A stretch of DNA of 37,566 nucleotides from Acidobacteriota bacterium. GTDB lineage: Bacteria; Acidobacteriota; Polarisedimenticolia; Gp22-AA2. The notes below the pieces were generated by a model, which had not been told where the DNA came from, ran no database searches, and saw only the letters and a program-made list of their open reading frames with translations. Location of the stretch: the NCBI GenBank assembly GCA_018606725.1, contig JAGYID010000017.1:1-37566 (forward strand), written 5' to 3'. The position numbers were made by a program, and so were the translations under genes. Each line of letters begins with the position of its first letter. Position 1 is the first letter of the stretch. Below, in pieces: positions 16,698-23,053 of the stretch.

Positions 16698-18179
16698 ATG
16701 GCAGTCCGCAAGCTGCGCAATTACGTACGCGGAGAGTGGTACGAGCCGCGGGGCGCGCGCTTCATCGACGTCGAGAACCCGTCGACCGGCGAGGCGATCG
16801 CCCAGGTCCCGCTGTCGACCGCGGAGGACACCAACGTCGCCATCGCGGCGGCCCACGCGGCGTTCCCCGGCTGGGCCGCGACGCCGGTCGACAAGCGGGT
16901 GGCGCCGCTGTTCAGGCTGGCGGGAATGATCCGGCAGAACCACGAGACGCTCGCCCGCAGCATCACCGAGGAGATGGGCAAATCGCTCCCCGACGCCCGC
17001 GCCGAAATCGACCGCACGCTGGAAAACGTCGAGACCGCCTGCGGCATGCCGGTCCTGCAGCAGGGCGACAAGCTGGTCGGCGCGGCCCCCGGCATCGACG
17101 GCGAAGTGATCCGCCTGCCGATGGGCGTGTTCACCATGATCGCGCCGTTCAACTTCCCCGGCATGGTGCCGTTCTGGTTCATCCCCTACGCGCTTGCCAC
17201 CGGCAACACCTACGTCGTGAAGCCGTCCAAGCAGGTCCCCTGCACCATGCAGCTGCTCGCCACGTACATCGACGCCAGCGGCTTCCCGAAGGGGGTCTTC
17301 AACCTGGTCAATGGCGACCGGGTGGTGGCCGACGCCTTCATGGCCCACCCCGACGTGCAGGGCGTCTCGGTCGTCGGCTCGACGCCGACGGCGCGCGTCA
17401 TCGCCGAGACCTGCGCCCGGAACAACAAGCGCTTCCAGGCGATGGGCGGCGCCAAGAACCACCTGGTGGTCATGCCCGACGCCAAGATGGACGACGTCGT
17501 CCGTAACATGATCACCTCCGGCTACGGCTGCGCCGGCCAGCGCTGCATGGCCTCGTCCGCGATCGTCTGCGTCGGAGATGCCGTCTACAAGGACGTCAGC
17601 GCCCGCTTCGTCGAGGCATCCAGGAAGGTGATCGTCGCCAACCCGCTCGACCCGAAGGTGGCGAACGAGTCGATGGTCATGGGACCGGTGATTTCGTCCC
17701 AGGCGAAGGACTTCATCTTGAAGATGATCGACGCGGGCGTGAAGGAAGGGGCGACCCTGGCCCTCGACGGCCGCGGCGTCAAGGTGCCCGGCTGCGACAA
17801 GGGGCACTTCATCGGCACGACGGTGTTCACCAACGTCAAGCCGGGGATGCAGATCCACAAGACCGAGATCTTCGGGCCGGTGCAGGTGATCCTGAAGGCC
17901 GCCACGCTGGACGAGGCGATCAAGATCGTCAACGAGCACGAGTACGGCAACGGCGCGTCGATCTACACCCAGAACGGCTACTACGCGCGCAAGTTCAAGA
18001 TCGAGGCGCGGGTCGGCATGGTCGGCATCAACGTCGGCATCCCCGCCCCGGTCGCCTACCTGCCGTTCGGCGGCATGAAGTCGTCGCAGTTCGCCGACAT
18101 CAAGGCGCAGGGCAAGGCGGTCGTCAACTTCTTCACCCAGGACAAGATCGTCACCGAGCGCTACTGGCCGGAGGCCTGA
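16698..18179 (+). CDS. mmsA: CoA-acylating methylmalonate-semialdehyde dehydrogenase
   Basis: A 493-residue aldehyde dehydrogenase of the MmsA type, which oxidatively decarboxylates methylmalonate (or malonate) semialdehyde to propionyl- or acetyl-CoA in valine and inositol breakdown. The catalytic Cys283 lies in GYGCAGQRCMASS. The position of the general-base Glu of ordinary aldehyde dehydrogenases is replaced by Asn254 in MGGAKNHLVVMPDAKMD, a hallmark of the CoA-dependent group. IAPFNFPGMVPFWFIPYAL and VGSTPTARVI are also family blocks. A perfect GGAGGT sits at 16688-16693, four bases before the ATG. It is 20 bp downstream of rocD and 25 bp upstream of the selenoprotein peroxiredoxin, so all three may share one transcript. 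The enzyme assignment is strong; pathway partners are not in the window. Confidence 0.92.
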   Translation: MAVRKLRNYVRGEWYEPRGARFIDVENPSTGEAIAQVPLSTAEDTNVAIAAAHAAFPGWAATPVDKRVAPLFRLAGMIRQNHETLARSITEEMGKSLPDARAEIDRTLENVETACGMPVLQQGDKLVGAAPGIDGEVIRLPMGVFTMIAPFNFPGMVPFWFIPYALATGNTYVVKPSKQVPCTMQLLATYIDASGFPKGVFNLVNGDRVVADAFMAHPDVQGVSVVGSTPTARVIAETCARNNKRFQAMGGAKNHLVVMPDAKMDDVVRNMITSGYGCAGQRCMASSAIVCVGDAVYKDVSARFVEASRKVIVANPLDPKVANESMVMGPVISSQAKDFILKMIDAGVKEGATLALDGRGVKVPGCDKGHFIGTTVFTNVKPGMQIHKTEIFGPVQVILKAATLDEAIKIVNEHEYGNGASIYTQNGYYARKFKIEARVGMVGINVGIPAPVAYLPFGGMKSSQFADIKAQGKAVVNFFTQDKIVTERYWPEA

Positions 18180-18204
18180 AACGACCGAGCGGAGGGACCA
18201 CACC

Positions 18205-18822
18205 ATGTCGGAACCGGCGAGCGGGCTGAAGCTGGGACAGAACGTCCCCGACTTCGAGCTCGAGACCTACGATCCCGTCAAGGACGACTTCGGCAAGTTC
18301 CGCCTGCAGGACCAGATCGCCGGCAAGCGCTGGACGGTCCTGTTCTTCTACCCCGCCGACTTCACCTTCGTCTGAGCGACCGAGTTCGCTGCTCTGGCAG
18401 AGCAGCACGAGCGGTTCGTGAAGATGGGGTGCGACATCATCACCATCAGCGCCGACACCAAGTTCGTGCACCTGGCGTGGCGCAAGAACGAGAAGGAGCT
18501 GGCGGCGGTGCGCTATCCGATGGCCTCCGACCCGACCGGCAAGGTCGGCCGGATGTTCGGGGTCTACGACGACAACACCGGGCTGAACCTGCGCGGCACG
18601 TTCGTCATCAACCCCGAGGGGAAGCTCCTGAACGCCGAGGTGAACTTCTACAACCTCGGCCGCAACATCGACGAGCTGATGCGGAAGTTCAAGGCCAACC
18701 TCTACATGACCAAGAAGACCAACGAAGCCTGCCCCTCGAAGTGGAAGGACGAGGGCGACAAGACCCTGGTCAACCCGGGCGCGAAGATGGTCGGCAAGGT
18801 CCACGAGGCGCTGAACCCGTAA
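18205..18822 (+). CDS. selenocysteine-containing peroxiredoxin (AhpC/2-Cys type), UGA at codon 57
   Basis: A 205-residue peroxiredoxin that would reduce hydrogen peroxide and organic hydroperoxides. The frame opens at ATG 18205 after GGAGGG and reads through TGA at 18373-18375 to TAA at 18822. The TGA falls exactly on the peroxidatic residue: FFYPADFTFV-U-ATEF replaces the family's FYPxDFTFVCPTE. After it, similarity continues unbroken: TISADTKFVHLAWRK, the Arg-containing SDPTGKVGRMFGVYD, GTFVINPEG, and a C-terminal resolving Cys176 in ACPSKW. A hairpin right after the TGA looks like a bacterial SECIS. The Pro after the peroxidatic residue is Ala here, a small departure. Selenocysteine would need SelA/B/C/D, which are not in this window. 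A sequencing error or nonsense mutation is the alternative, made unlikely by the hairpin. Ordinary gene calling would report only 18418-18822. Confidence 0.88.
18373..18406 (+). promoter_or_regulatory. putative bacterial SECIS element following the UGA codon
   Basis: Starting 12 nt after the TGA, the arms GCTGCTCT (18388-18395) and AGAGCAGC (18399-18406) pair perfectly over 8 bp around a GGC loop. The loop begins 20 nt after the TGA. Bacterial SECIS elements lie just downstream of the UGA inside the coding region, have a short stem and a small loop with G in its first positions, and bind SelB; this fits. The hairpin is coding (AALAEQ). Recognition by SelB is inferred. Confidence 0.75.
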
Positions 18823-18883: not shown

Positions 18884-19576
18884 ATGAAGCCGGAGATGAC
18901 CATTCTGTTCTGGTGGCTGCTGTTCGCCGGCACCCACATCATCGGGTCGAGCGTGCCGGTGCGCACGCGGCTGATTCGCGCCCTCGGGCTGCGGGGGTTC
19001 AAGGGGCTCTACACCGTCGTCGCCCTCGCCACCTTCGTCCCGCTGTTCTACGTCTACTTCGCGAACAAGCACGCCGGGACGGCGCTTTTCAATCCGGGAG
19101 AGGGGCTGCGGCTCGTCGCCCAGGGGCTGATGCTGCTGGCGTTCGTCGTTCTCGCCCAGGGGCTCGCCACACCGAGCCCTCTGACCACCCAGGCGGAGAT
19201 GACCGGCGCCTTCCCCGACCGGGCCCGCGGCATCCAGCGGATCACCCGGCACCCGCTGAACCTCGGCTTCGCACTGTTCGGCCTGGCGCACTGCCTCGCC
19301 AACCCCAATGCCAGCGACTGGATCTTCTTCGGCGGCTTCGTCGTCTACGCCGTGATCAGCGCGCTGCACCAGGACCGCCGGACGTGGGCGACCGGCCCCG
19401 ACGCGGTGCGGCAGTTCCAGGAGCAGACTTCGTTCGTTCCGTTCGCTGCCATCCTCTTCGGCCAGCAGCGGCTGGCCCTGCGCGAGTTCAGCCAGTCCGC
19501 GTTGTGGGCGTCCGTCGCCCTGTTCTTCGTCGTGCGGCACTTCCACGGCAGGCTCTTCGGGGGGCTCGAAGGATAG
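18884..19576 (+). CDS. NnrU family integral membrane protein
   Basis: A 230-residue polytopic membrane protein with about six hydrophobic helices (for example ILFWWLLFAGTHIIG, LYTVVALATFVPLFYVYF, LMLLAFVVLAQGLA, WASVALFFVVRHF). It contains the NnrU-type core RGIQRITRHPLNLGFALFGLAHCLANP, which resembles the isoprenylcysteine-methyltransferase/NnrU fold where the RHP motif is conserved. NnrU was named from nitrite/nitric-oxide reduction clusters, but no denitrification gene is nearby and the molecular function is unknown. It begins 61 bp after the peroxiredoxin stop. The start ATG at 18884 follows a purine-rich GAGAGGGGGTGAG segment. It is convergent with the kinase gene, whose stop lies 59 bp away. 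Confidence 0.8.
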   Translation: MKPEMTILFWWLLFAGTHIIGSSVPVRTRLIRALGLRGFKGLYTVVALATFVPLFYVYFANKHAGTALFNPGEGLRLVAQGLMLLAFVVLAQGLATPSPLTTQAEMTGAFPDRARGIQRITRHPLNLGFALFGLAHCLANPNASDWIFFGGFVVYAVISALHQDRRTWATGPDAVRQFQEQTSFVPFAAILFGQQRLALREFSQSALWASVALFFVVRHFHGRLFGGLEG

Positions 19577-19635: not shown

Positions 19636-22551
19636 TCACCCGTCGGGCGAGGATGCCAGTCGCTTGCGAGCCTCGATCAACTCGGGGATGTCGGGGTCGG
19701 CGTCTTTCCAGTCGGTGACGAATTGCCCGTACCATTGACGGGCGCGGTCGGCCTGGCCCGCCCGCTCGCAGGCGCGCGCGGCGCTGTACTGGTCGAGCGA
19801 CCCGAAGACCGACAGGACGAGATATCGCCTGCGGAAGGGGTATTTCAAGACTTCCTCGTAGGCGCCCGCCGCCTCCGGCCACATTCCGAGCGCTTCGTAG
19901 GTTCGCGCCAGCACGTGGTGGCGCCGCAGAAGGATCGAGTTGTAGGCCAGTTTTTCGAGCGCCGGCAGCGCCTCGGCCGGCCTGCCACGCACCAGCCGGA
20001 GGCAGGCGCGGGCGAACTCCAGCTCCTCCGTTGCGAAGCGGCTGTCGAGATCCTTGAGGGCGATCTCCTGCTCGCGCACCATAGCGGCCAGCGGTTCCTC
20101 CTGGCCGGTCTCGACGGCCATGACCGCCATCGCCGGGAGATAGACGATATTGCGGTCGAGCGGGGCGATCTGGTCGCGATCGAGCCGGACCGGCTTGCCG
20201 GAGGTGCGCCCGTCGACCCACGCGCGGGCGAGCGCGCTCCACCCGCGCATATCCACCTTCTTGATCTCCGCGGCGGAGCGCCAGGCGGCGATGACCGCCT
20301 CCCGCCCTTCCTTGAACCGCCCGGCGCCGAGCAGGCCATCGGCGTAGGTCACTGCCATGACGGACACGATTCCCGTTCCCTCCCTGCCGTACGTTTCGGT
20401 CAGCGCCCGGGCCTTCGTCCAGTCGCGCCGGAGGACGTGGGCCCACATCCTGGAAGGCTCCACCTGTTGCGGCAGCCTGCCCGCCTTCAACGCCTCGTCG
20501 ACGATCCAGTCGATTTCCCGGGTGTTCCCCTGTTTTTCGAATGCATCGACGCAATTCCCGAGGGCGAGCAGGGTCGGCACGATGTTGTACTCAGCGCGAT
20601 AGAGGGCTTCGGCGCCGACCGGATCCTCGAGCAAGTTGAGGTAGATCCAACCCAGCCAGTCTGGATAGCGGACATCGTGGGGATACATCGCCATCTGGGA
20701 CTTCAGGCGCTCGATTTCGATGTCGGTCTGCAACGTGGCATCGAGGTGGTTGATCTCCGCCCACGTCCGCTTCATGGGCGACTGACCAGTGGAGCGACGA
20801 TGCGCCTCTGCGGCGTTTTTGCGATATCCATCCCAATCACCCAAATTGGCCAGGGTGACGCCGAGGTCGATGTAAGCGTCCACGAAATCGGGGTCGATGT
20901 CGATCGCCTTCTTATAGAGCCCGACGGACGCCTCGTTTCCGGAAGCCCTTTCGGCCGCGGCCACAGCCTGCAGGGCGGCGAGCGAGCGGGTGGCTGGCGG
21001 TTCCGTCGAGCCGATCGCCTGCAGGCTCTCACCGGTCCTGCGCCGCACGGCGTTCGCGATGCTCCAGATCGTCCCGACGATCGCGTCCTCGCCCGCCGCC
21101 AGCGCGGATTCCGTGACCACCGCTCGCTCCTCGCCGCGGCGGTGCAGGCCGACTTGGATCCGGTAGGCGGACCCTTCCCGGACGATCTTGCCGCTGACGA
21201 AGCCTCCGCAGTGTACCTGGCACAGACTGGCAGCGGCCTTCGCGTCGATCCGGGTCGCCGTTCGAAGGCCCGCCGCCTTCGTCAGATCGGCCAAATCGTC
21301 TCCGGTCACCACCCACAGGTAGGTCGAGAAGTTGAGCATCCATTCGAACGCGTCCCTGATTGCCGTGTCGAATTGAGATTGCCCCGTGGCGTTCTCGAAG
21401 TCGGCGACGACGATGCGGCTGCCGACCGGGAAGGCGGTCGCCGGCCGGCTCGCGACCCAATGACGGACGGCGAAGATCGCCAGCAGGGCCGCCGCGCCGG
21501 CCGCGGCGCCCATCCAGGCGATCCGCGACCGGCCAGACGGTCGCGACCAGCCTGACAGCCGGCGGCCGGACCGCGGCACGCCCACCGCCACCGGCCCGCC
21601 CGGGGTCCGGACTACCTGTACGTCCGAGTCGGTCGCCCGCTTCAGGCGGCGCAAATCAGTCACCATGTCGTCGGCGTGGTGATAGCGATCCTGCGGGTCC
21701 TTTTCCAGCGCCTTGGCGATGATCCGTTCCAGCTCAGGCTGCGGCTCGCCGGTCACGCTGCCGGGAGGCGGCGCCTCCTCCTTCAGGATCGAGGCCAGCG
21801 TCTCCGCGTCGGTCTTCCCCTTGAACGGCTGCCGCCCGGTCGCCATCTCGTACAGCACCACCCCGAACGAGAACAGGTCCGAGTGGTGCGTCACCCGCTC
21901 TCCGCGCGCCTGCTCCGGGCTCATGTAGGCGACGGTGCCGAATACCTTCCCCTGCATCGTCAGCTCGCGCGAGATCGTGTCCATGCGCGAGTGCAGGTCC
22001 TCCCCGGCTGCACCGCCGGCCCGGGTGTCCGCCGTGTCGCCCACGCCGGTCGAGCCGCCCGCCCCTTCCGGCTCCAGCAGCTTCGCCAGCCCGAAGTCGA
22101 GGACCTTTGCCGTCCCCTGCCGCGTGACGAAGATGTTGTCCGGCTTCAGGTCGCGGTGCAGGACGCCGTGCTCGTGCGCCGCCTGCAGCGCCTCGCCGAT
22201 CTGCATGGCCACCGGCAGCAGCGTCTTGAGCGGCAGCGGCCGGTGGCCGATCCGCTCCCGCAGCGTCTGCCCCTCGAGGAGCTCCATCACCAGGAAGTCG
22301 CTCCCGTCGTGCTCTTCGACGGCGTGGATGGTGCAGATGTTCGGGTGATTCAGCGCCGCCGCGGCCTGCGCCTCTCTCCTGAACCGCAGGCGGCGCTCGT
22401 CGCTGCCGACCAGGTCCGGCGGCAGGACCTTGATTGCCACGGGGCGGTTCAGCCGGGTGTCGAGGGCGCGATAGACGACGCCCATGCCCCCCTCGCCGAG
22501 GCGGGAAACCACCTCGTAGTGGCCGACGCGCGATCCCGGAGCGAGGTTCAT
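19636..22551 (-). CDS. membrane Ser/Thr protein kinase with C-terminal helical-repeat region
   Basis: A 971-residue Hanks-type kinase. Residues 12-290 form the kinase domain: Gly-rich loop LGEGGMGVVYRA, Lys41 in VAIK, catalytic HRDLKPDN with Asp134, DFGLAKL, and GTVAYMSPEQARGE. A Ser/Gly/Arg linker leads to one transmembrane helix (WMGAAAGAAALLAIFAV, around residue 355). The periplasmic part begins with a VVADFEN...FDTAIRDAFEWML segment that looks like an adenylate-cyclase-associated/TolB-like domain, followed by TPR-like helices (ALQAVAAAERASGNEASVGLYKKAIDIDPDFVDAYIDLGVTLANLGDWDGY and later repeats). The ATG at 22551 was chosen because kinase homology starts there; no Shine-Dalgarno is evident. 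This architecture is abundant in Acidobacteriota. Substrates and signal are unknown; no partner gene lies next to it. Confidence 0.9.
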   Translation of the reverse strand: MNLAPGSRVGHYEVVSRLGEGGMGVVYRALDTRLNRPVAIKVLPPDLVGSDERRLRFRREAQAAAALNHPNICTIHAVEEHDGSDFLVMELLEGQTLRERIGHRPLPLKTLLPVAMQIGEALQAAHEHGVLHRDLKPDNIFVTRQGTAKVLDFGLAKLLEPEGAGGSTGVGDTADTRAGGAAGEDLHSRMDTISRELTMQGKVFGTVAYMSPEQARGERVTHHSDLFSFGVVLYEMATGRQPFKGKTDAETLASILKEEAPPPGSVTGEPQPELERIIAKALEKDPQDRYHHADDMVTDLRRLKRATDSDVQVVRTPGGPVAVGVPRSGRRLSGWSRPSGRSRIAWMGAAAGAAALLAIFAVRHWVASRPATAFPVGSRIVVADFENATGQSQFDTAIRDAFEWMLNFSTYLWVVTGDDLADLTKAAGLRTATRIDAKAAASLCQVHCGGFVSGKIVREGSAYRIQVGLHRRGEERAVVTESALAAGEDAIVGTIWSIANAVRRRTGESLQAIGSTEPPATRSLAALQAVAAAERASGNEASVGLYKKAIDIDPDFVDAYIDLGVTLANLGDWDGYRKNAAEAHRRSTGQSPMKRTWAEINHLDATLQTDIEIERLKSQMAMYPHDVRYPDWLGWIYLNLLEDPVGAEALYRAEYNIVPTLLALGNCVDAFEKQGNTREIDWIVDEALKAGRLPQQVEPSRMWAHVLRRDWTKARALTETYGREGTGIVSVMAVTYADGLLGAGRFKEGREAVIAAWRSAAEIKKVDMRGWSALARAWVDGRTSGKPVRLDRDQIAPLDRNIVYLPAMAVMAVETGQEEPLAAMVREQEIALKDLDSRFATEELEFARACLRLVRGRPAEALPALEKLAYNSILLRRHHVLARTYEALGMWPEAAGAYEEVLKYPFRRRYLVLSVFGSLDQYSAARACERAGQADRARQWYGQFVTDWKDADPDIPELIEARKRLASSPDG

Positions 22552-23053
22552 ACGACTGTGCGCCGCACGATTCCCCCCGTTCGTGACGCTCGCGGGCCCG
22601 GGATCCGTGGTGACGATCGCCGGCGAATACCGGCCGCGCGCGCTTTCTGAACTTGACCGGAAGGTCCGTCCCACCGGGCCAGGGACAACAAGTGGAGCGA
22701 TTCTAACCCAATTGCCCTCGGCGGGGCTGCCCGCGGCCACACCGGCGGCGAATCCAGCGGCCGGGCGCCGCATCCCAAGACCGGGTGCGGTTGCTGGGCG
22801 GTCAACGGAGATCGCCGGCCAGCGCCCGGAGGCGGCGTCCGATGACCCACATCGTGCTGTACGACCTGGAATGCTGCGGCGCTCCGGTGGCCGCGGCGGC
22901 GACGACGACCTGCAGCGCCAGATCCTCGAGCACGCCTGCGCCGGACCGCTTGAAGCTCCCGACCCCGGCGACGAACTGGACCGCCGCGCTGCCCGCCTGC
23001 GAATTCGCGATTACGCCTGGGAGATGTGACGCGCCGGACCGGCGAAGGCGCTC
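22552..23053. other. 502-bp gap between kinase and acyl-CoA dehydrogenase genes
   Basis: No recognised gene lies here. The kinase promoter must be within it or close to it. Codon use and composition do not clearly favour any frame except the short plus-strand frame 22871-23029 listed separately. I found no tRNA-like fold or strong terminator. Confidence 0.5.
22871..23029 (+). CDS. possible small acidic protein, unrecognised
   Basis: A 52-residue frame from ATG to TGA on the plus strand, opposite in direction to its neighbours. It has a Gly/Arg-rich start and a well-mixed, charged, helix-like body (DDDLQRQILEHACAGP, then DELDRRAARLRIRDYAWEM). Third positions are mostly G/C, as in real genes here. 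It lacks a Shine-Dalgarno and any family I recognise, and an overlapping +1 frame is also open, so it may be chance. Listed as a weak candidate only. Confidence 0.22.
   Translation: MLRRSGGRGGDDDLQRQILEHACAGPLEAPDPGDELDRRAARLRIRDYAWEM

Follow-up and report, generated by a model that had tools for sequence, protein, structure and literature searches.

A selenocysteine AhpC-type peroxiredoxin gene in Acidobacteriota, apparently of a lineage separate from PrxU

The gene and its in-frame UGA

The window, the whole stretch of 37,566 nucleotides that was analysed, carries on its forward strand at 18205..18822 a reading frame of 205 codons which ends in TAA and contains a single TGA, at codon 57 (18373..18375). 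The start codon ATG is preceded at a spacing of 8 nt by the Shine-Dalgarno sequence GGAGGG (18191..18196, by direct reading), and most homologues have a comparable purine-rich sequence upstream. With TGA translated as selenocysteine (Sec, U), the 205-residue product reads FYPADFTFV-U-ATEF around this codon and matches PF00578 (AhpC-TSA) at 3.3e-36 over residues 11-141 as well as solved AhpC structures, with 1yf1 at the top (6.7e-42); by both kinds of match, the halves on either side of the TGA are parts of one AhpC-type peroxiredoxin. In the structure alignment the TGA lies under the peroxidatic Cys of FYPADFTFVC, the redox-active Cys of the homologues, and completes a PxxxTxxU motif of P50, T54 and U57. 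An AlphaFold model built from the alignment of the clade (pLDDT 84, pTM 0.81) finds 2-Cys PrxA/AhpC proteins as its top Foldseek matches, for example AhpC 1n8j at 1.5e-20. Cys176 (codon 18730..18732) occupies the C-terminal resolving position within EACPSK. The protein thereby combines the PxxxTxxC/U motif, the catalytic Arg, the AhpC fold and the C-terminal resolving Cys of the AhpC/Prx1 type. At the level of sequence comparison, the gene is confirmed as that of a selenocysteine AhpC-type peroxiredoxin with UGA at the peroxidatic site. A preliminary description of this DNA had placed Sec at codon 57 and followed the full family sequence to a resolving Cys176 and a normal stop, and the alignments bear out both statements together with their coordinates and residue numbers. 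It had also foreseen annotation as a shortened gene, and the frame that a pipeline would call, starting at GTG and spanning 18418-18822 (134 aa), is indeed present.

The TGA recurs at exactly the position of codon 57 in a clade of 22 loci whose proteins share 57-88% identity with that of the window, and every one of these frames reads on to the C-terminus of the family, which excludes chance. Sixteen of the loci come from a first collection: the window itself, loci in three genomes from its phylum, and others in MAGs that carry the labels Rokubacteria, Nitrospirota, Planctomycetota or Terriglobia. The other six were obtained when 396 genomes were sampled from the phylum; the TGA form occurs in 10 of them, in addition to one fragment that is missing the codon. 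By gene, the closest public relatives are labelled Terriglobia and Rokubacteria. The next relatives are AhpC proteins with Cys from Aquificota, Desulfovibrionaceae and other groups, which are 49-62% identical and have TGC or TGT at the site, so that the comparison of relatives proposed in the preliminary description separates into TGA within the clade and Cys codons outside it. P50, T54, U57 and R130 are invariant in the clade, and the resolving Cys is retained in 21 of the 22 members, the exception being L138 with Ile. The patchy spread over phyla suggests that the gene may have been transferred laterally; searches of plasmid and phage collections gave only matches below 60% identity, none of which belongs to the clade.

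The neighbouring genes at the window locus, given here as context, are an aldehyde dehydrogenase upstream (16698..18179, forward strand; PF00171, 6.7e-130) and an NnrU family membrane protein downstream (18884..19576, forward strand; PF07298, 2.8e-35), and they are uninformative on peroxide defence. Adjoining the NnrU gene, at 19636-22773 on the reverse strand, is the gene of a large Ser/Thr kinase that contains TPR repeats. Elsewhere the gene stands beside a FUR family regulator (L024) or near desulfoferrodoxin, a flavodoxin-domain protein and rubrerythrin (L029), and the Cys relative L106 is likewise a neighbour of desulfoferrodoxin. Context therefore supports a role in peroxide defence for some relatives but not at the window locus.

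The downstream hairpin and the selenocysteine machinery

Directly after the UGA, a hairpin of the form GCUGCUCU-GGC-AGAGCAGC occupies 18388..18406 of the forward strand, with an 8-bp stem and its apical GGC loop at 18396-18398. It starts 12 nt and its loop lies 20 nt after the UGA, which agrees with the published bSECIS model of a stem-loop just downstream of the codon with a G in the first two loop positions and a loop 16-37 nt from the UGA (PMC13188914). Among the 21 distinct sequences of the clade, standard pairs are formed in 167 of 168 stem cells, compared with 45% in the equivalent columns of 90 Cys homologues. Most stem pairs are invariant, but one, between positions 18 and 32 when numbering begins at the U of the UGA, varies as T-A, C-G and G-T, with double changes in L037 and L138 that preserve the pairing. 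As the pairing count alone partly reflects shared amino acids, the stronger evidence comes from the frozen synonymous sites: where the same amino acid is compared, synonymous-codon identity is 0.98 in hairpin codons 62-67 and 0.51 gene-wide. The fold of the single sequence over 60 nt after the UGA is modest, with a z-score of -1.57, and the case for a SECIS is thus comparative and not energetic. On these comparative grounds the hairpin is a bacterial SECIS element under selection. In L138, the exception at the resolving Cys, the hairpin that follows the UGA is much longer, at about 20 bp, and the first 50 nt fold at -37.9 kcal/mol.

The window's own assembly is a draft of 235 contigs with a completeness of 95%. 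A tRNA-Sec was found in it at 73.6 bits against a cut-off of 47, its anticodon being TCA according to ARAGORN, and family searches place selA (550.5 bits), selB (330.6 bits) and selD (147.3 bits) above their cut-offs, although of selD only the second half (profile positions 155-310) is present because a contig end cuts the gene. selA, selB, selC and selD are thus found in one genome, as the preliminary description had proposed to check. That selA is present in every one of the 9 genomes where a TGA gene of one or the other Sec clade occurs has little weight, given that 52 of 59 relatives overall have it. A 100% complete relative that lacks selA has a peroxiredoxin match with one internal TGA (G020, C15:37274-37729), which is probably an alignment across a true stop.

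These observations bear on how the UGA is read. Occasional insertion of Cys at the UGA under selenium limitation is possible. The UGA could also be a true stop, or the gene a pseudogene, with a 56-residue product and a separate product of 134 aa from GTG 18418; the existence of the latter frame would fit this, but the protein is conserved before and after the TGA in different phyla, the only stop codon is always the identical one, the resolving Cys is intact, and a conserved SECIS occurs together with the Sec machinery in the genome, which leaves this explanation highly improbable. Equally hard to sustain is a reassigned UGA, or one read as another residue such as Trp or Cys in a selenium-free manner. 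Any frame that is open over a TGA formally fits such a reading, yet TGA is an ordinary stop in the same DNA, where it ends the preceding aldehyde dehydrogenase gene, a dedicated tRNA-Sec with anticodon TCA is present alongside selA, selB and selD, and the hairpin is limited to genes that bear the TGA. An error of sequencing or assembly by which a Cys AhpC gene acquired TGA in place of TGC or TGT, the objection that the preliminary description itself had raised and for which a single base in a draft of 235 contigs would be enough, has a negligible probability, as the identical TGA is borne by related genomes at 21 other loci from independent assemblies and is followed by a near-invariant hairpin that is absent from Cys homologues.

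Relation to PrxU and to cysteine-type AhpC

Peroxiredoxins with Sec have long been known and are catalogued in PMC1794560, PMC2398784, PMC9312934 and PMC13188914. A close point of comparison is PrxU, the Sec peroxiredoxin of Eubacterium (Peptoclostridium) acidaminophilum (Sohling et al. 2001, doi 10.1515/BC.2001.123), which resembles the window protein in its AhpC-type sequence throughout, in the Sec that follows DFTFV at the peroxidatic position, and in a hairpin directly downstream of the UGA. A further group, the Bcp/PrxQ-type Sec peroxiredoxins (the Prx TxxU catalogue entry; PF00578/Bcp protein; PMC9312934, PMC13188914), shares the Sec at the peroxidatic Cys but differs in peroxiredoxin subfamily. 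A second candidate TGA peroxiredoxin of PrxQ/Bcp-like sequence, LAWFPKAFTGG-U-TAECASL, is located on contig 229 of the window's own genome (L022:1423-1950, reverse strand); a stable hairpin is predicted after its TGA, and a transposase-like frame of the helix-turn-helix and integrase type lies about 140 bases past its 3' end.

The same fold, the same Sec position and a match of 8.2e-53 to the PrxU model NF040737 could be taken to mean that the window protein is a diverged PrxU and no separate Sec lineage exists. Several lines of evidence make this improbable. The match reaches 179.5 bits, 90 bits below the cut-off of 270, whereas a second set of TGA peroxiredoxins in the same phylum scores 370-420 bits and passes the PrxU model. 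Maximum-likelihood trees place the two Sec sets in separate, fully supported clades, with that of the window nested among Cys AhpC proteins beside those of Aquificota and Desulfovibrionaceae. A tree constrained to unite both Sec sets is 27-31 log-likelihood units worse and is rejected at p-AU 0.006 and 0.009, values which are somewhat optimistic because the first tree was already known when the groups were named. The hairpins differ as well, with a GGC loop in the window's clade against GGUC or AGUU in PrxU and with shifted columns, and the motif reads PGDFTFV in PrxU where the window protein has PADFTFV. The PrxU genes of the phylum (L107, L109-L113, L140-L163) all have TGA at the peroxidatic site, and their hairpins covary.

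The window protein is also distinct from the AhpC proteins represented by TIGR03137 and by the Salmonella structures 1n8j and 4ma9. It shares with them the fold, the PxxxTxxC motif and the C-terminal resolving Cys in E-x-C-P, and its nearest Cys relatives are AhpC of Aquificota and Desulfovibrionaceae; it differs in having Sec for the peroxidatic Cys, ATEF instead of PTEL after it, and a SECIS hairpin. By motif and fold it is a member of the AhpC subfamily, but it is not the TIGR03137 equivalog, for which it scores 174.7 bits against a cut-off of 272. The scanned members of its clade behave in the same way, with 175-202 bits for the AhpC equivalog and 171-192 bits for PrxU, and none of them passed either model.

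The simplest reading of the trees would be two changes from Cys to Sec in the AhpC family, and the window gene apparently belongs to a second AhpC-type Sec lineage that arose independently of PrxU. The preliminary description had compared the gene with PrxU; the gene is not PrxU but part of an apparently separate Sec lineage within the AhpC family. What is new is an additional member, from a lineage that is apparently separate and has no name in current models, Sec peroxiredoxins themselves being known. A description of this lineage was not found in the openly accessible main texts of the literature; since older catalogues list “Prx” undivided into subfamilies, members may have been counted there under that name.

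Proposed catalytic cycle and implications

The explanation that accounts best for all observations together, and which is held with very high confidence, is that of a Sec-containing AhpC/Prx1-type peroxiredoxin whose UGA would be decoded by SelB and the hairpin, which would cycle between Sec57 and Cys176, and whose clade would have arisen independently of PrxU. SelB bound to the hairpin would deliver Sec-tRNA-Sec to the UGA at 18373-18375. The invariance of P50, T54, U57 and R130 leads to the expectation that the chemistry of the first step is that of other peroxiredoxins, in which case T54 and R130 would activate the selenolate of Sec57, which would reduce peroxide and become a selenenic acid. 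This would then condense with Cys176 of the partner subunit in an AhpC-type dimer to form a selenenylsulfide, a step made likely by the retention of the C-terminal Cys in 21 of 22 members, and the bond would be reduced by a pair of thioredoxin and thioredoxin reductase. The cycle most likely to operate in this protein runs through an intersubunit Sec57-Cys176 selenenylsulfide and its reduction by thioredoxin. A full-length AhpF, the absence of which sets this system apart from that of AhpC, was not found by profile search in the window's genome, where the best match is below the cut-off, covers only the reductase half and is thioredoxin-reductase-like. From the Ile in L138, the cycle is apparently able to run without the resolving Cys.

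The combination of Sec with a C-terminal resolving Cys, emphasised in the preliminary description, is present here but not peculiar to this protein. While E. acidaminophilum PrxU has Ala at the resolving position, 10 of the 24 PrxU genes of the phylum have Cys and 14 have Thr, and the idea that the combination is unique to the window's clade was dropped accordingly. Between them, the PrxU genes of the phylum with and without this Cys offer a natural series in which to study what the residue does.

The wider reading joins several propositions: a second, independent recruitment of Sec in the AhpC branch from a Cys-type ancestor, a Sec/Cys enzyme cycling via an intersubunit selenenylsulfide with thioredoxin, movement of the gene between phyla together with its SECIS, and its omission from present family models. 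Taken as a whole, this reading is rather likely to be correct. The lineage is a clean one, is covered by neither the PrxU nor the AhpC model as they now stand and is easily mis-annotated as a broken gene. It illustrates how strongly codons within a catalytic helix are held fixed by a SECIS hairpin over divergence at the level of phyla. Its close Cys relatives allow a direct test of what AhpC gains from Sec, be it in rate or in resistance to overoxidation, and the role of the resolving Cys becomes testable too, as the window's lineage keeps this residue while the PrxU lineage is often without it.
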